Positions 3,029 to 49,493 of a DNA stretch of 64,000 bases are shown piece by piece; positions within the stretch are counted from its first letter, which is position 1, and each line of letters opens with the position of its first letter. Position numbers and translations under genes: made by a program. The stretch is taken from NCBI GenBank assembly GCA_943788505.1, contig CALSQR010000002.1, forward strand, positions 881,213 to 945,212. The letters are read 5' to 3'. This stretch comes from an uncultured bacterium. Lineage in GTDB: Bacteria; Bacteroidota; Rhodothermia; Rhodothermales; UBA10348. The notes beneath the pieces are model-generated. The model searched no databases. It was given only the letters and a program-made list of their open reading frames with translations, and was not told the origin of the DNA.

Positions 3029-4882
3029 TTAACCTACCATTTCTGCAATTTTGCGCTGGATCTCGGACGGACCAAAAGGCCGCCCTTGAATCTTGTTCAT
3101 GGCCTCGAAAGGCAGTAGGAAACGATCCCTAAGGATGCGAACCATCTGGCCATTGTTCATCTCGGGTACCAAATATTTCGAATACTGACTCAGCACTTCG
3201 CCAAGATCAGCCGGTAGCGGATTCACAAACCGCAGGTGAACGGCGGCTGCTTTGTGGCCATCGTTCAAGGCACGCGTCACACCGGCTTCAATGGCTCCTC
3301 GCGTGGAGCCCCATCCGACAATGATTAGGTCTGCATCCGGGTCACCGAAAATATCGAGGGGCGGAATCTCCTGTTGGATGCGCTCAACTTTTTCGGCGCG
3401 AATCCACGTCATGTGCTCGTGGTTGCGAGAATCGTAGGACACGTTCCCCGTTCCATCCTGTTTTTCGAGTCCACCAATACGGTGCTCCAGACCCGCGGTG
3501 CCAGGCTTCGCCCACGGACGGGCAAGCGTTTTCTCATTGCGGACATACGGGTGAAAGACCGCTTTGCCGTCTTCCTCTGCATTCGTGCCTGTGGCAAATG
3601 TGACGTCAAAGTCATTCAGAGAATCCGCATCAGGGATGAGCCACGGCTCCGAACCGTTTGCGAGATACCCGTCGGAGAGTAGCATGACCGGTGTCATGTA
3701 TTTGACTGCAATCCGGCACGCTTCGTAAGCGACTTCGAAACAATCACCCGGTGTGCTTGCGGCTATGATCGGCAACGGGGCATCCCCATTTCTACCATAC
3801 ATCGCCTGCATAAGGTCAGACTGCTCTGTTTTCGTTGGTAGACCCGTTGATGGCCCACCGCGCTGCACGTTGATGATAACGAGGGGAAGTTCTGTGATGT
3901 GCGCCAAGCCCATCGCCTCTCCTTTTAAGGCAATACCCGGCCCAGATGTCCCGGTAATTCCCAACGAGCCGCCGAAGCTGGCTCCGATAGCAATACCTAT
4001 GGCAGCAATCTCATCCTCAGCCTGCACGGTCATGATACCGTGGTTTTTGTACTTACTAAGAGAATGAAGGATGTCGGATGCTGGCGTGATCGGATAGGAA
4101 CCATAGGTTAGCAATAAGCCACTCTTATTCGCCGCCGCTACCAGTCCCATCGCCATCGCTTGCACACCTTGGATAGCGCGATACCGCCCGGGAGGCAGGG
4201 TCGCAGGCGTGACTTCATACCGCGTAACGAATTGTTCAGTCGTTTCGCCAAAGTGATATCCTTTCTTGAGTAGTTCGAGGTTGGCGTCCCTGATGACCGG
4301 CTTCTTACCAAACTTGCTCGAGATCCATTTTCGAGCTGGCTCGACGGGTCTCGAATAGAGCCACAGTGCCAGACCCAGCGCAAACATGTTCTTGGATCGG
4401 TCGATCTCTTTTTGATTTAGCGATGAGTCCTTGAGCGTCTCGCGCGTCAGCTTGGTGAGTTCGACCTGAATGACGCGGTATTTATCCAGCGAACCATCCT
4501 CGAGCGGGTTCGTGTCCAAATTGGCCAAGTTGAGATCCTTGCGCTCGAACGCATTCGAGTTCACCAAAATCGTACCGCCTGCACGAACGCGCTCCACGTT
4601 GACCTTCAAGGCCGCCGGGTTCATGGCGACCAGCAGATCGACCTCATCGCCCGGTGTTCGGATATCAACCGACCCGAAGTGAAGCTGGAATCCAGACACA
4701 CCATACGTCGTACCGACGGGGGCGCGGATTTCCGCAGGAAAATCAGGCAAAGTGGCCAAATCGTTCATCGCGTAGGCCGTAGCCAGCGTGAACTGCGTTC
4801 CGGTCAGCTGCATGCCGTCTCCGGAGTCCCCTGCGAAAAGCACTGTGGCTTCGGGCAGGGTTTCAACAGTTTTCGTACCCAT
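3029..4882 (-). CDS. korA: 2-oxoacid:ferredoxin oxidoreductase, gamma-alpha fused subunit
   Basis: 617 residues. The N-terminal ~200 residues are the gamma domain (FAGDSGDGMQLTGTQF). The rest is the alpha (pyrimidine-binding) domain with TYGSYPITPASDILH and SGPGIALKGEAMGLA. This fused arrangement is typical of KorA/OorA in Bacteroidota and Actinobacteria. It forms the catalytic complex with KorB, feeding reduced ferredoxin and acyl-CoA in central carbon metabolism, for example as a TCA-cycle 2-oxoglutarate step. The next gene, korB, starts 19 nt downstream, so the two form an operon. A sigma-70-like promoter lies about 100 nt upstream. Confidence 0.94.
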   Translation of the reverse strand: MGTKTVETLPEATVLFAGDSGDGMQLTGTQFTLATAYAMNDLATLPDFPAEIRAPVGTTYGVSGFQLHFGSVDIRTPGDEVDLLVAMNPAALKVNVERVRAGGTILVNSNAFERKDLNLANLDTNPLEDGSLDKYRVIQVELTKLTRETLKDSSLNQKEIDRSKNMFALGLALWLYSRPVEPARKWISSKFGKKPVIRDANLELLKKGYHFGETTEQFVTRYEVTPATLPPGRYRAIQGVQAMAMGLVAAANKSGLLLTYGSYPITPASDILHSLSKYKNHGIMTVQAEDEIAAIGIAIGASFGGSLGITGTSGPGIALKGEAMGLAHITELPLVIINVQRGGPSTGLPTKTEQSDLMQAMYGRNGDAPLPIIAASTPGDCFEVAYEACRIAVKYMTPVMLLSDGYLANGSEPWLIPDADSLNDFDVTFATGTNAEEDGKAVFHPYVRNEKTLARPWAKPGTAGLEHRIGGLEKQDGTGNVSYDSRNHEHMTWIRAEKVERIQQEIPPLDIFGDPDADLIIVGWGSTRGAIEAGVTRALNDGHKAAAVHLRFVNPLPADLGEVLSQYSKYLVPEMNNGQMVRILRDRFLLPFEAMNKIQGRPFGPSEIQRKIAEMVG

Positions 4883-43566: not shown

Positions 43567-45456
43567 ATGTCACTTCTTGTAGATTTTAATACTGTCCCTC
43601 AGCTATTCAATCGGCTGATTACTCATCATGGCAACAATGGTAAAGTCGTCCTGCGCCATGTCGATAAGGAAACCAAGGAGTGGGTCGACATCCTTTGGCC
43701 GGAGTTTCGTGACAATGTCCATGCGATGGCTGGATATCTGTACGCACAGGGCGTTCGACCCGGTGATCGCGTGGCTATCCTTTCTGAAAATCGACCCGAA
43801 TGGGCTTATGCGGATATGGCAACGCAGATTCTCAGTGCTGTAAACGTCTCGTTGTATACGACTCTTCCGCCAAAAGAAGTCGCTTATATCGTCCACGATT
43901 CAGGCGCGTCAGTCTTCATCGTCTCTACGGGCATCCAGGTCAAAAAGGCCATGGAGATTTACGACCTCTGTCCAGATCTGAAGAGAATCGTGTCGATGGT
44001 CGAACCGCGTGGCGAGAAGCCAGATTATGTAGATCTATTTGAAGAGGCGATGTCCTCCGGAGTGGAGCTATACAAGGAGTTCAAGGATGCTATTCATGCC
44101 AACGAAGCGAATGTAAAACCGAATGACCTGTCGACCTTGATCTACACATCGGGTACAACGGGCAACCCGAAAGGTGTGATGCTAACGCATTTGAACCTGA
44201 GCGAAAATCTCAAGTCCGCCCTGCAACGTTTGCGCCTTCGAGAAGGAGGACGACACCTGTCATTCTTGCCCCTATGCCATTCATTTGAGCGGCTGGGCGG
44301 CTACCTCGGCAGTATTGCCTCCGGAATGACGATCTCATACGCCCGAAGTGTTGATACCGTCACCCGGGATATTCTAGACGTCAAGCCAACTGTTCTTCTA
44401 TCCGTTCCCCGTCTCTACGAGAAGATTTTCAATACCGTTAGCAAAGCGGTTGAAGAAGGGTCCCCGGCGAAGAAAAAGATTTTTGTCTGGGCGCAGAAGG
44501 TGGGCTTCAAGTACAATATGGCCAAAGCACAAGGCCGCTCTATTGGTCCCATTGTGGCCTTGCAGTACAAATTGGCCTTCAAACTCGTATTCTCGAAGCT
44601 ACATGAAAAACTAGGCGGGCACATCGAATTCGGCGTTTCTGGAGGTGCGGCTCTACCGAAATCAATCGGTGAGTTTTTCTTTTCAGCAGGCATCCCGATT
44701 GTTGAGGGTTACGGTCTGACAGAAACGTCGCCAGTGTTGTCGATTTCACCCTTTCATCAGCCCCGATACGGCGCCGTAGGTCACATCATTCCTGGTGTAA
44801 CGGTTGGTATCCAGCATCTGGACGATGGACGTATGCTGGGAGAGATTCTCGGTGACACCTACCCGAACGATCTCACAACAGAGGCCGGGGAGATCGTTGC
44901 GAAGGGTCCAAACATCATGAAGGGATACTGGAATAAGCCTGAGGCAACGAAAGAGTCTATTGATCCCGAAGGATGGTACCATACTGGCGATGTGGGGCGT
45001 TTCGACAACGGATTCCTGGTTATCACGGACCGTATCAAACATATGATCGTCTCTGCCGGCGGTAAGAATATCTATCCCGGTCCGATCGAAGAAGGATTCA
45101 AGCACGAACCATGGATTGATCAGATCATGGTCATTGGCGAAGCACGGGAGTTTCTTACCGCCCTTGTTGTCCCTGATGAAGACGTAATCCGCAGTTTTGC
45201 CAAAGAACAGAAGCTCGAAGCATCCTCGCTTGAAGACATCCTTGCAACAGACGAGGTCAAGCGGGTTTTTGAGCAGCTGTTCAAGTCGTACTCACGGCAG
45301 GCTGCAGCCCATGAGAAGATTCGCGACTTCAGGTTAGTGCTCGAGCCATTTACGATCGATAATGGCATGATGACACCTACGATGAAGCTAAAGCGCAAGG
45401 TCATTAATGCGCACTACGCCGACCTCATCGACTCTATGTACAGCCACATTATTTGA
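43567..45456 (+). CDS. Long-chain fatty acid-CoA ligase (AMP-forming)
   Basis: 629 residues. The AMP-binding signature LIYTSGTTGNPKGVMLTH, VEGYGLTETSPVL, and GWYHTGDVGRFDNGFLVITDR are present, and the C-terminal PTMKLKRKVINAHYADLID carries the catalytic lysine region. It activates fatty acids to acyl-CoA for degradation or lipid synthesis, in the cytosol or on the membrane. It is the long FAA1/FadD15-like type. Follows pyrD by 58 nt and may share its transcript; the gene product is unrelated in function. Confidence 0.95.
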   Translation: MSLLVDFNTVPQLFNRLITHHGNNGKVVLRHVDKETKEWVDILWPEFRDNVHAMAGYLYAQGVRPGDRVAILSENRPEWAYADMATQILSAVNVSLYTTLPPKEVAYIVHDSGASVFIVSTGIQVKKAMEIYDLCPDLKRIVSMVEPRGEKPDYVDLFEEAMSSGVELYKEFKDAIHANEANVKPNDLSTLIYTSGTTGNPKGVMLTHLNLSENLKSALQRLRLREGGRHLSFLPLCHSFERLGGYLGSIASGMTISYARSVDTVTRDILDVKPTVLLSVPRLYEKIFNTVSKAVEEGSPAKKKIFVWAQKVGFKYNMAKAQGRSIGPIVALQYKLAFKLVFSKLHEKLGGHIEFGVSGGAALPKSIGEFFFSAGIPIVEGYGLTETSPVLSISPFHQPRYGAVGHIIPGVTVGIQHLDDGRMLGEILGDTYPNDLTTEAGEIVAKGPNIMKGYWNKPEATKESIDPEGWYHTGDVGRFDNGFLVITDRIKHMIVSAGGKNIYPGPIEEGFKHEPWIDQIMVIGEAREFLTALVVPDEDVIRSFAKEQKLEASSLEDILATDEVKRVFEQLFKSYSRQAAAHEKIRDFRLVLEPFTIDNGMMTPTMKLKRKVINAHYADLIDSMYSHII

Positions 45457-45500
45457 GCAACGTTACTTGTGGGATAAGGGATAGACCGCGGAGAATGCAG

Positions 45501-45917
45501 ATGAAACAGGTAGTATTAGTATTGCTGGTCGGGTTCTTGATGAGTGGGTGCGAGATCCTCGGACCAGATGACGAAAAAGATGAGGCGAGGACCTATCCAC
45601 AAGCCATGGACCTACCCGCGGCAGATCTTCAGCAGCTGTTGGATGGGATTCACGAAAATGGCCGTTTCAACCTTACTGCCTTTGTGGTGGGGATATCAGA
45701 ATGCCCTCCCGACTACGCCTGCTTGGTTGCAGATAACATCCAGGTAGCTGGGAGCCCACATACTGACGGACCCTCCCTGATGATTAGCGCCGAAAAGCCG
45801 TCACAATTCGACCAAGACGAACCCTATGTCCTGTCGATTGAGGTCTTCGGTGAACGCTTTCCCGAATCCAGCCAGTCTCGTTTTGTTTTGCTACTAGCCT
45901 ACTCGGACGCTGACTGA
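45501..45917 (+). CDS. Lipoprotein of unknown function
   Basis: 138 residues from the ATG at 45501 (MKQVVLVLLVGFLMSGC), chosen because GGAG lies 7 nt upstream; other starts up to 45453 are in frame. Lipobox LMSGC at residue 17. The mature part contains GISECPPDYACLVADNIQV and ends in a beta-rich segment (FVLLLAYSDAD). I recognise no family. The 3' end overlaps the R2lox gene tail by 19 nt on opposite strands. Confidence 0.8.
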   Translation: MKQVVLVLLVGFLMSGCEILGPDDEKDEARTYPQAMDLPAADLQQLLDGIHENGRFNLTAFVVGISECPPDYACLVADNIQVAGSPHTDGPSLMISAEKPSQFDQDEPYVLSIEVFGERFPESSQSRFVLLLAYSDAD

Positions 45918-47212
45918 ACTGGCGCTCCCGAGGCGCCACTTTCAATTCGGCGCATGCGCTTACCGAACTGATCCATGGCGAAGCGCAGAAAGTCCTCCTC
46001 ACGTAGACCGAATGGTACTGGATCGTACTGGGAGAAAATTTCAGAAATGGTAGCCGTTGCCACAGGGATTAGTTCTCCCATCACCTGATGGAAAAGAGGC
46101 GATAGCTCGGGATTCTCTCGAATAAGCCGAGTGATGAGGTGCACCCCGTACGCAATGTGCCTCGACTCGTCACGCTGAAGTAACCGGATCCCTTCTGTAA
46201 CCCCGGGCATAATACCTCGTGATTCTAGCACGCTGTAGAAAGCGTGATACCCAGTTTCGGCGAGCGTGCCTTCCACAACCATATTGTAGGTAGCCGATGC
46301 CGTTAGCTGAGCGGCAGGTGAGGAATCCGCATCAAGGCGATTCATAGCCGTAGGAAGGGCCTCATAAAACAATGCTCTATACGAGGCAGAATGGTATCCG
46401 GATAGATCGTCGGTTCGAACAACCACCTCCTTGAATATCCTGCTAAAGAGCTCGACGTGTTTAGCTTCCTCAAATAGAAATGTAGTCAAATACATTTCTT
46501 CTTCGATTCGTCCCTCTTTCGCGATGACCCGCATGAGTGGAAGTAAATCGAGTGTAACCGCCTCCTCGCCCGCTTGGAACATGGCCAATAAACGAACCAA
46601 GATATCTTGCTCATCTTCGGTCAATCGCTGCCAATCCGCCCGGTCTTTCTGGAAATCGATATCCATCGGATCCCAAACACCCAGTTTCTTGGCTTTCTGG
46701 AAAAGCTGCATCGGCAGACTATCCTGATCCAGGCCGCCTGCTGACGTTGTGCGGAATGCTTGGTGTGCATCCGATATTTGAGCAACTGCCCCGAGAGATG
46801 GTTTAGCCTTCATCTCTTCCTGCGGCTGCACTTCTGCCTTCTCCAGTGATATGGCGGCCTGTAGCATCTCTGTAGCGGCCTGGGCATGACGGCTGAGCTT
46901 TAGCAAGGAGCCGCGCTCCAACGTTATCACACCTTGCATGATGGCTACGATCGGCGCTACCTCGCCACTCAGAATTCGGCCCCAGTCTTTTTCGGAAGCG
47001 GCGAGGATGATGTCGGTTTTCAACAGCTCGTCCGGTGTGGCTTGTCTAATATCTTTACACCTTCCCCGATCTAGATCCAGCCACCAGTCGACTTTAGATT
47101 CTATGCGGAGGACGACGGGCCATTTCCACTTTCGGGCGGCTTTTCGATAGGCGTCACTCTGGTTGAGTGCTTCCATCCAGGCAAGCGCCCATTCTGAAGT
47201 AAATCGTTGCAT
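45899..47212 (-). CDS. SCP2-like domain fused to R2lox (R2-like ligand-binding oxidase)
   Basis: 437 residues. Residues ~1-125 look like an SCP2 sterol-carrier fold (WKWPVVLRIESKVDWWLDLD, then ILSGEVAPIVAIMQGVITLE). From ~160 on is an R2lox ferritin-like domain. Metal ligands are all in place: Glu217 in QAGEEAV, Glu249/His252 in FEEAKHVE, Glu314 in NMVVEG, Glu349/His352 in RDESRH. Val219 and Tyr309 match the pair that forms the Tyr-Val ether link in characterised Mn/Fe R2lox. R2lox proteins hold a long-chain fatty acid, so a lipid-carrier domain fused to it is sensible. It lies 43 nt after feoB on the same strand. Confidence 0.9.
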   Translation of the reverse strand: MQRFTSEWALAWMEALNQSDAYRKAARKWKWPVVLRIESKVDWWLDLDRGRCKDIRQATPDELLKTDIILAASEKDWGRILSGEVAPIVAIMQGVITLERGSLLKLSRHAQAATEMLQAAISLEKAEVQPQEEMKAKPSLGAVAQISDAHQAFRTTSAGGLDQDSLPMQLFQKAKKLGVWDPMDIDFQKDRADWQRLTEDEQDILVRLLAMFQAGEEAVTLDLLPLMRVIAKEGRIEEEMYLTTFLFEEAKHVELFSRIFKEVVVRTDDLSGYHSASYRALFYEALPTAMNRLDADSSPAAQLTASATYNMVVEGTLAETGYHAFYSVLESRGIMPGVTEGIRLLQRDESRHIAYGVHLITRLIRENPELSPLFHQVMGELIPVATATISEIFSQYDPVPFGLREEDFLRFAMDQFGKRMRRIESGASGAPVQSASE

Positions 47213-47255: not shown

Positions 47256-49493
47256 TTAACCCAGCCCCAGCGCCTTCCCGCCCTGATAGATCACGAAGGA
47301 AAACAGCCACGCCAGGCCTGTCATGTAAAGCCACATGACAGCTGGCCATTTCCAGGAGTTCGTTTCTCGGCGTGCGATAGCAAGGGTACTCATGCACTGC
47401 AACGCCAGAACAAAGAAAACCAGTAGACTAACGGCAACAAGCGGTGTATAGACGGGCGACCCATCGGCGTACCGATCCGCTTTCAGCTTTTCGCGCAACA
47501 GCGGACTGTCATCATCTATGTCACCGACGCTGTAAAGAGTAGCTAATGCTGAAATAATGACCTCGCGTGCAGCAAAAGCTGAAATGATCCCCGCGCTGAT
47601 CTTCCAATCGAAGCCAAGGGGACGCATAATGGGCTCGATGGCATGCCCCATTCGTCCGATCACACTACGCTCAATCTGATAGGCTGACTCCCGAGCATCA
47701 AGGGTTCTGATCGCGCCATTCATGGCGACTTGCGCTTCGATGAGTGCATTGGATGCTGTCATTCCCGCCGCTTGAAGAGAATCGGCTCGGGTGTCAATTT
47801 GCAGATCGATGGTTGCCCGCTCTGCAATCATTTCGTCTGGAGTATTGGACCGCGGGAACGTGGCCAAGACCCAAAGCAGGACAGACATACCGAAAATGAT
47901 CTTCCCTGCTCGAACTACGAACGCTTTAGAGCGATCGATCATTCGCCATATAATTTGCCGAAACCGCGGCATCCGATACGGCGGAAGCTCCATCGCGAAG
48001 AAGGACGACTCCCCCTTGAACACGAAGCGGCGCAATACGAAAGCGGCAATGAAGGCCATCACCGTACCCAACAAGTACATCGAAAACATCGCGATGCCCT
48101 GGAAGGTAAAAATGCCTAAAACGGCCCCGGTCGGTAAGAAGGCAGCAATGAAGAGAGTATAAACGGGCAGGCGGGCTGAGCAGCTCATTAATGGGGCGAC
48201 CATGATGGTGATCAGCCGATCTCGTGGGTTGGCGAGCGTACGAGCCGCCATGATGCCTGGAATAGCGCAGGCAAACGAAGAAAGCATCGGCACTACGGAT
48301 CCTCCCGATAGCCCGACGCGATGCATGACTCGATCCATGATGAAGGCTGAGCGGGCCATGTAGCCCGTATCCTCCATGAGACCCAAAAAGAAGAACAGCA
48401 ACAGGATTTGCGGCAAGAAAACAACCACATTGCCTACGCCCGTAATGACGCCATCGACCAGTAGATCGGTGAACATGCTGGGCGGCATCCCAGAACGTAC
48501 GAGGTCACCTAGCCCAACAACGCCTGCCTCGATACCATCCATCACAGGTGTGGCCCAAGTAAACACGGCCTGGAATATCAAAAGCAATACGAGCCCGAAT
48601 AGTAGCGGCCCGAAAATGCGATGGGTCAGCACTGCATCGATACGATCAGAAACAGTCTGCTGATTGGGGTCCTTTTGCTTTATGGCAACCCGCGCAACGA
48701 GAGGGCTGAGCCAGTTGTACCGACCCATGATTTCTGCTTGGCGATATGGGGCCTTTCTCTCCTCAAGCCGTTCGCGAACAGCTAACACACGAGCATGAAA
48801 TCTTGGAGCGCGTGTTAACCAGCTCTCCAACATAGTGTCGCTCGTGAGACACTGAAGAGCCTCAATGAAGCGACTTTTCTCAGGAAGATGAGACTTGAGC
48901 TCTTCCTCTAGATCAGGAATTACTTCTGCCACGACGGGCATTAGCTCCCACTTTCGCTCTGCTGGTTCGGGAAGCTCCTCTTGTCGCATACGGTACTTCA
49001 GCTTGCCAATTCCATCATTACGAGACGCGACCATCGGAATGACGGGCACTCCTAAGGACTCTTCCAGCGCTTTTACGTCGATTGACAAGCCGGCTTCTTC
49101 GGCCGCATCGGTCATGTTTAATGCTACGATGACCGGCAATCCCACGTCTATGACTTGTGTGACCAAGTACAGGTTGCGTTCGAGGTTACTTGCATCCACT
49201 ACACAGACCGCAAGGTCTGGAGCCGTTTCACCAGGGAGGTGCCCAATGAGGACATCGTAGGCTATGCGCTCATCGAGTGACTTCGGACTAAGGCTGTAGG
49301 AGCCTGGCAGATCAATCAGATCGATATCCAGATCGCCGACGATCCGACCGACTTTTCTCTCAACAGTTACGCCGGGATAGTTACCCACTTTTTGACGCAT
49401 CCCCGTTAGGAGATTGAACACCGTGGTCTTCCCCACATTCGGATTGCCAATCAGGGCAATTTTCCGCGTTGGTCTTGAAGTAGATTCAGCCAT
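47256..49493 (-). CDS. feoB: Ferrous iron transport protein B
   Basis: 745 residues. N-terminal GTPase with G1 GNPNVGKTTVFN, G3 DLPGSYSL and G4 NMTD; a GDI-like helical part; then the membrane Gate domains (LLSSFACAIPGIMAARTL, VPMLSSFACAIPG, SAGIISAFAAREV). It imports Fe(II) across the inner membrane. It follows two feoA genes with a 20-nt gap and is followed at 43 nt by the SCP2-R2lox gene, so a four-gene operon is likely. Probably repressed by iron through the palindrome upstream of feoA. Confidence 0.97.
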   Translation of the reverse strand: MAESTSRPTRKIALIGNPNVGKTTVFNLLTGMRQKVGNYPGVTVERKVGRIVGDLDIDLIDLPGSYSLSPKSLDERIAYDVLIGHLPGETAPDLAVCVVDASNLERNLYLVTQVIDVGLPVIVALNMTDAAEEAGLSIDVKALEESLGVPVIPMVASRNDGIGKLKYRMRQEELPEPAERKWELMPVVAEVIPDLEEELKSHLPEKSRFIEALQCLTSDTMLESWLTRAPRFHARVLAVRERLEERKAPYRQAEIMGRYNWLSPLVARVAIKQKDPNQQTVSDRIDAVLTHRIFGPLLFGLVLLLIFQAVFTWATPVMDGIEAGVVGLGDLVRSGMPPSMFTDLLVDGVITGVGNVVVFLPQILLLFFFLGLMEDTGYMARSAFIMDRVMHRVGLSGGSVVPMLSSFACAIPGIMAARTLANPRDRLITIMVAPLMSCSARLPVYTLFIAAFLPTGAVLGIFTFQGIAMFSMYLLGTVMAFIAAFVLRRFVFKGESSFFAMELPPYRMPRFRQIIWRMIDRSKAFVVRAGKIIFGMSVLLWVLATFPRSNTPDEMIAERATIDLQIDTRADSLQAAGMTASNALIEAQVAMNGAIRTLDARESAYQIERSVIGRMGHAIEPIMRPLGFDWKISAGIISAFAAREVIISALATLYSVGDIDDDSPLLREKLKADRYADGSPVYTPLVAVSLLVFFVLALQCMSTLAIARRETNSWKWPAVMWLYMTGLAWLFSFVIYQGGKALGLG

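Follow-up and report, generated by a model that had tools for sequence, protein, structure and literature searches.

The window analysed here, a stretch of 64,000 nucleotides, codes for a protein in which a complete R2lox domain follows an SCP2 domain within a single polypeptide, and the same SCP2/R2lox pair occurs elsewhere as two separate, neighbouring genes. R2lox is an already known family; here it takes a multi-domain form and has a recurrent SCP2 partner. We somewhat favour the view that the window protein is a self-loading lipid oxidase, whose SCP2 domain would feed a hydroxylation carried out by the R2lox domain, the product then passing to acyl-CoA.

The fusion gene (45899-47212, minus strand, 437 aa), characterised with Pfam and NCBIfam profiles and a structure model, has an intact open reading frame that starts with an ATG at 47212 and ends with a stop codon at 45899-45901; the original prediction had placed it correctly and was silent on the strand. 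Its N-terminus, MQRFTSEWA, aligns with that of its relatives, which reads MDRF(T/S)xxWA in five Rhodothermales-type loci. The SCP2 domain covers residues 1-125 (46838-47212, minus strand). PF02036 matches residues 16-98 with 28.4 bits against a Pfam cut-off of 21.3 (E 2e-6), a phmmer search of the PDB with residues 1-125 hits nothing but 2cx7 (E 2e-16) and 1wfr (E 3e-16), both of them structures of Thermus SCP2, and a sequence search of the PDB with the whole protein returns the Thermus SCP2 TT1886 at E ~2e-15 for residues 1-121. The R2lox domain covers residues 150-427 (45932-46765, minus strand), as judged from NCBIfam, PDB and Foldseek searches and from a reading of its residues. The R2lox equivalog model NF006202 scores 396.4 bits on residues 149-426 (cut-off 315, E 8e-119), a second R2lox equivalog, NF006200, 272.6 bits (cut-off 194), and the Pfam family Ribonuc_red_sm matches residues 179-404, while the whole protein finds R2lox structures in the PDB with E-values down to 7e-68.

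The AlphaFold2 model of the fusion protein (39 aligned sequences, mean pLDDT 91.7, pTM 0.88) consists of two ordered domains and a low-confidence stretch at about residues 133-146, pLDDT falling below 50 at 133-136 and 138-146. This stretch lies in the linker (about residues 126-149; 46766-46837, minus strand), whose length varies among fusions and which, to judge from the model, is probably flexible. Thirty-four R2lox rows top the Foldseek list, with target TM-scores of 0.76-0.85 and about 40% identity to the R2lox entries, and the model aligns with 2cx7_A over 132 columns with a target TM-score of 0.85 and an rmsd of 1.2, as expected of an SCP2 fold. The claim that an SCP2-like domain precedes R2lox would have been in difficulty if such similarity were absent by profile or by structure, and both approaches found it; the R2lox domain likewise proved complete. 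The single-domain form is usual for R2lox without defining the family (at ~266-330 aa, the R2lox chains of known structure have the size of one domain), and the window protein departs from it by the added N-terminal SCP2. We also considered a class I ribonucleotide reductase R2 subunit and rejected it: R2 models reach at most 54 bits against 396 for R2lox, and the conserved C-terminal tyrosine of class I R2 subunits, described as absent from R2lox (PMC3824934), has no counterpart here, the last tyrosine being Y396, 41 residues before the C-terminus.

Read from the translation, the metal ligands E216, E249, H252, E314, E349 and H352 are all present, as is the cross-link pair V219/Y309. They correspond to E69, E102, H105, E167, E202 and H205 in the GkR2lox numbering given in PMC10867098, and A318 and Y322 are equivalent to A171 and Y175 of GkR2lox, the small residue and the conserved tyrosine of the R2lox channel (PMC4118035). 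The residue set originally proposed thus stands with one amendment, its Glu217 having to be replaced by Glu216. Residues 216 and 217 are each a glutamate that does not vary across 11 fusion proteins; the first ligand is E216 because Geobacillus E69 sits three residues before V72, and V219 fixes the spacing. In an alignment of 162 R2lox rows, 161 or 162 retain each ligand and cross-link position (the Val72 equivalent is valine in 161, the Tyr162 equivalent tyrosine in all 162) and 160 retain the equivalents of G68, A171 and Y175; every key R2lox residue is kept in all 23 fused rows.

The survey of fusions called for by the original prediction found the fusion in at least 24 distinct genomes from five phylum-level groups. 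Chance or misassembly was rejected as an explanation because the fusion recurs in these 24 genomes. A scan of genome contigs yielded 63 relatives, ten of them fusions (L002-L010 and L033), which come from metagenome-assembled genomes of Rhodothermales or Bacteroidetes, Calditrichia, Verrucomicrobia, Thermoanaerobaculia and Gemmatimonadota, plus one further MAG. Among 296 genomes of the window's own phylum, 13 carry R2lox at E <1e-80, and 11 of these have the fused form; one of the two unfused carriers has an adjacent SCP2 (L137, genome G070), the other none nearby (L136, genome G135). In 200 Gemmatimonadota genomes, at least nine bear a strong R2lox, five fused and four unfused; counting divergent proteins there are at least 13 carriers, so that 5 of 13 are fused among the matches listed. 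The four divergent Gemmatimonadota proteins (L116-L119, E ~1e-44 to 1e-52 against the fusion profile) keep all metal, cross-link and channel residues, and three of them have an SCP2 within about 1 kb. The 199 Acidobacteriota genomes gave at least ten R2lox, of which one is fused, one is SCP2-adjacent and eight are unfused, and the six looked at (L102-L107) of these eight, all at E ~1e-62, have no SCP2 in their 1.5 kb flanks. The counts from the subtype and R2lox searches of Bacilli, actinobacteria, Acidobacteriota and Gemmatimonadota are lower bounds, since these searches scored only 5 or 8 candidates per genome, and matches in Bacilli were considered down to E ~1e-84. On a FastTree phylogeny of R2lox, which has several long branches, the fused label needs six changes, at least two of them forced by starred branches. 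Two apparent fusions, in Bacilli (L148, genome G557) and Acidobacteriota (L155, genome G828), were discarded when gene maps resolved them into separate adjacent genes; the profile search does not halt at stop codons and had made them look fused.

That SCP2 is a working partner of R2lox is supported by the Bacilli, where 31 of 69 SCP2 genes have R2lox no more than 15 kb away, compared with 0.9 expected. These 69 genes, all over the Pfam cut-off, come from 52 R2lox-bearing Bacilli genomes with 62 R2lox genes; 15, 21 and 31 of them have R2lox within 1.5, 6 and 15 kb, where a Poisson expectation based on rounded genome sizes, with each genome taken as independent, is 0.12, 0.38 and 0.89. A search of 299 Bacilli genomes gave at least 14 standalone SCP2 genes of the fusion's subtype, with G557 counted as separate; 13 of them are within about 3 kb of R2lox and the remaining one is in a genome (G353) with no detected R2lox. 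Because many bacteria encode SCP2 on its own next to R2lox, the fusion unites two proteins whose genes sit side by side in other genomes. Within 6 kb, 60 Bacilli R2lox regions (a duplicate locus, L212, of L039 being left out) contain SCP2 in 20 cases, an ABC1/UbiB gene in 21, a zinc- or iron-type alcohol dehydrogenase in 28, an aldehyde dehydrogenase in 23 and an acyl-CoA ligase in 11, compared with 0, 0, 0, 1 and 1 in 18 control regions hand-picked on R2lox-bearing genomes, but these region counts are partly circular, R2lox clusters having been the source of the seed genes; the Pfam distance test is free of this circularity. SCP2 and ABC1 travel together: 19 of the 60 regions have both, one SCP2 only, two ABC1 only and 38 neither (Fisher 2e-12).

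Seen from the carrier's side, 19 of the 20 SCP2-bearing Bacilli regions include the ABC1/UbiB ATPase (L138-L148, L150, L151, L154, L017, L035, L038, L196 and L204). The gene order in Candidatus Carbobacillus is acyl-CoA ligase, regulator, R2lox, SCP2, alcohol dehydrogenase, R2lox, aldehyde dehydrogenase, ABC1, and in the named isolate Aneurinibacillus tyrosinisolvens (L038) an ABC1, aldehyde dehydrogenase, SCP2, alcohol dehydrogenase series is divergent from R2lox. In an Alicyclobacillaceae MAG (L017), a patatin-like phospholipase recognised by Pfam (3365-4312 of that locus) precedes SCP2, alcohol dehydrogenase, R2lox, aldehyde dehydrogenase and ABC1, and is a possible source of fatty chains. 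A large regulator, putatively with a LuxR-like C-terminus, is also found near R2lox in Bacilli, often divergently oriented (L017 1618-3228, L035 1436-2995, L141, L145 and others); it has matches in 35 of the 60 regions, some of them weak and possibly reflecting only a shared DNA-binding part.

The complementary comparison is between carriers in cis and in trans. Across 43 R2lox genomes that we chose, an additional SCP2 gene over the Pfam cut-off is present in 4 of the 24 genomes that have the fusion, and in every one of the 16 whose R2lox is unfused and non-adjacent (Fisher 1.5e-7, a contrast confounded by phylogeny and by our choice of genomes); in the remaining three, SCP2 is adjacent to R2lox. 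This contrast is consistent with R2lox requiring an SCP2 partner, which the fusion would supply.

Plasmids of actinobacteria show the pair in similar company. On Rhodococcus opacus pROB01 one strand carries, in order, an alcohol dehydrogenase, R2lox, an FAD oxidoreductase, a ferredoxin, an aldehyde dehydrogenase, SCP2 and an acyl-CoA ligase; Rhodococcus pRB11 has the same set with a two-component regulator pair in between, and on both plasmids the alcohol dehydrogenase of the set is NDMA-dependent and the SCP2 protein is annotated as such. On Mycobacterium pMyong1, R2lox is followed by a 136-aa protein whose SCP2 score of 18.8 bits falls short of the 21.3-bit threshold, then by a ligase and an alcohol dehydrogenase. 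The association is not universal. SCP2 is absent from the stretches taken of the Rhodococcus sp. 008, Geobacillus pHTA426 and Haloterrigena plasmids, from all 11 stretches examined among 197 actinobacterial genomes (at least 11 of which have R2lox), from the stretches examined around R2lox in Chloroflexota and Armatimonadota, and from 40 of the 60 Bacilli regions. R2lox can therefore work without an adjacent SCP2.

Nor is this type of SCP2 confined to R2lox. The fusion's subtype occurs without R2lox in more than 30 Gemmatimonadota genomes. Such TT1886-type genes (L120-L134), in many Gemmatimonadota and a few other genomes, stand beside unrelated genes, for instance those for a peptidase M14, a DUF5916 protein or an LPG synthase TM region, and no consistent neighbour emerged among those looked at. 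The idea of SCP2 as an R2lox-only factor was consequently dropped, on account of these many R2lox-free copies with mixed neighbours; TT1886-type SCP2 has other uses besides R2lox.

In the window itself, a gene for the ferrous-iron transporter FeoB (47256-49493, minus strand; TIGR00437, 551.8 bits against a cut-off of 315.65, and synteny) ends 43 bp before the start codon of the fusion on the same strand, and the two likely form one transcription unit. A feoB gene is upstream of the fusion in L002-L007 too, not always immediately; a functional tie of the fusion to iron uptake or supply is only suggested by this arrangement. On the other side, a long-chain acyl-CoA ligase of the FadD type (43567-45456, plus strand; Pfam/NCBIfam) is convergent with the fusion, and a close relative of it is convergent near the fusion in L003, L005, L006 and L007. 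Between them a small conserved protein (45453-45917, plus strand), which has no Pfam match and is also present in L002, L003 and L004, is encoded convergently, the 3' end of its gene overlapping that of the fusion; given its lipobox-like N-terminus we take it to be lipoprotein-like. In five loci (L003-L007; e.g. L003 3089-4762, minus strand) an FAD-dependent oxidoreductase, presumably exported in view of a Tat- and lipobox-like N-terminus, is divergent from the fusion; it was not seen beside the fusion of the window or of L002. An iron-type alcohol dehydrogenase and an aldehyde dehydrogenase adjoin the fusion in L004, and a zinc-type alcohol dehydrogenase lies 3 kb from it in L009, but in the window and most fusion loci neither enzyme is adjacent. 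No ABC1 gene stands beside the window fusion, the one ABC1 match of this genome being about 0.4 Mb off on the same contig.

Comparison with known systems helps to place the protein. The R2lox proteins of Geobacillus kaustophilus (GK2771) and Mycobacterium tuberculosis (Rv0233) share with the fusion the domain, the ligands, the cross-link pair and the channel residues, and TT1886 of Thermus thermophilus (1wfr, 2cx7) matches the whole SCP2 domain but is a lone protein. The GK2769-GK2782 alkane-degradation cluster puts GkR2lox I beside genes for alcohol dehydrogenase, aldehyde dehydrogenase and acyl-CoA ligase (PMC10867098); the terms "SCP" and "sterol" are both absent from the main text of that paper and, unlike in the fusion, no SCP2 is annotated in the Geobacillus plasmid R2lox region. 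The same 2024 paper reports that GkR2lox I degrades C10 and longer alkanes in crude lysates, and that mutating two metal ligands brings a modest, partial drop in activity (PMC10867098). We regard this evidence for an alkane hydroxylase as suggestive, not conclusive; in view of the published activity, the description of the R2lox reaction as unknown has to be qualified. Functionally, the closest parallel is the Ubi system, in which an SCP2 protein, UbiJ, binds hydrophobic ubiquinone intermediates and serves lipid hydroxylases together with UbiB, an accessory ATPase, and in which ubiT-ubiU forms an SCP2-hydroxylase fusion in Zymomonas (all as described in PMC6747719). The kinship would be limited to SCP2 and ABC1, the Ubi hydroxylases being flavin monooxygenases or U32 iron-sulfur proteins unrelated to R2lox. 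Our literature search retrieved no paper linking R2lox or Rv0233 with SCP2 or a sterol carrier; most subscription papers fall outside its coverage and an earlier mention is possible.

How might the fusion work? The SCP2 domain would load itself with a hydrophobic long-chain compound drawn from the membrane or a lipid pool and present it, be it a long-chain lipid or a hydrocarbon, at the substrate channel of R2lox, where the Mn/Fe (or Fe/Fe) centre would activate O2 for a two-electron oxidation, most likely the hydroxylation of an alkane-like or fatty chain. Alcohol dehydrogenase, aldehyde dehydrogenase and acyl-CoA ligase would then carry the product to acyl-CoA; all three partners lie beside R2lox in unfused lineages, and in the window the ligase alone does. 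A separate SCP2 would do the same work in trans, and the ABC1/UbiB-type ATPase added in Bacilli may help to extract the lipid. It is the neighbours of the unfused operons (alcohol and aldehyde dehydrogenases, acyl-CoA ligase and often ABC1/UbiB) that suggest such a lipid hydroxylation route. The original proposal of substrate delivery by a built-in carrier gains support from the SCP2 genes found next to R2lox in many bacteria, although delivery, lipid binding and the identity of the lipid are things that we infer. More tentatively, SCP2 and R2lox, with the ABC1/UbiB ATPase in Bacilli, may make up a widespread module for Mn/Fe oxidation of lipids extracted from the membrane, that is, a lipid-presenting soluble hydroxylase, Ubi-like but separately evolved, with its carrier in cis or in trans.

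The Ubi parallel can be pushed further, to a substrate that is itself an isoprenoid or quinone-like membrane lipid, with ABC1/UbiB, SCP2 and R2lox acting as do UbiB, UbiJ and the Ubi hydroxylases. In its favour are the tight co-occurrence of SCP2 and ABC1 around Bacilli R2lox (the Fisher value of 2e-12 given above) and the fact that in E. coli both UbiB and UbiJ are accessory factors of ubiquinone synthesis, some steps of which are hydroxylations that depend on O2 (PMC6747719). We nevertheless find it unlikely: these Bacilli clusters, like the Rhodococcus plasmids, contain alcohol dehydrogenase, aldehyde dehydrogenase and acyl-CoA ligase, which suit the degradation of a chain and not the hydroxylation of a ring, and the window fusion lacks an adjoining ABC1, the only match in its genome being elsewhere.

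One may also doubt that the carrier feeds the active site at all. SCP2 proteins such as UbiJ can organise complexes (PMC6747719), the linker is of low confidence in the model and many R2lox proteins have no SCP2 nearby, so that the domain could be a membrane anchor, a holder of product or an aid to folding or dimerisation. There is no need, however, for a structural aid to have its own gene next to R2lox in lineages that are unrelated, or for genomes with unfused R2lox to carry SCP2 genes in trans to match it, and this makes a purely structural role rather improbable in our eyes. Least probable, we believe, is that R2lox acts on a carrier-bound fatty acid as a desaturase or protective oxidase and not as a catabolic hydroxylase: the dehydrogenase and ligase neighbours in Bacilli and on the Rhodococcus plasmids favour an oxygenated product, as does the alkane degradation reported for GkR2lox I (PMC10867098), even though a desaturase role has been proposed from modelling (PMC4118035) and the Rhodothermales-type fusions adjoin feoB and mostly not alcohol or aldehyde dehydrogenase genes.

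Returning to the carrier-fed hydroxylase that we favour, its interest lies in R2lox being a structurally well studied Mn/Fe enzyme whose natural substrate is still debated. Fusion or adjacency makes SCP2 a natural bait, whatever it holds being a strong candidate for that substrate. The ferredoxin and FAD oxidoreductase of the plasmids suggest an electron supply for R2lox, and the Bacilli clusters put the ABC1/UbiB ATPase among its likely partners. The fusion gives a directly testable prediction on the substrate of R2lox.
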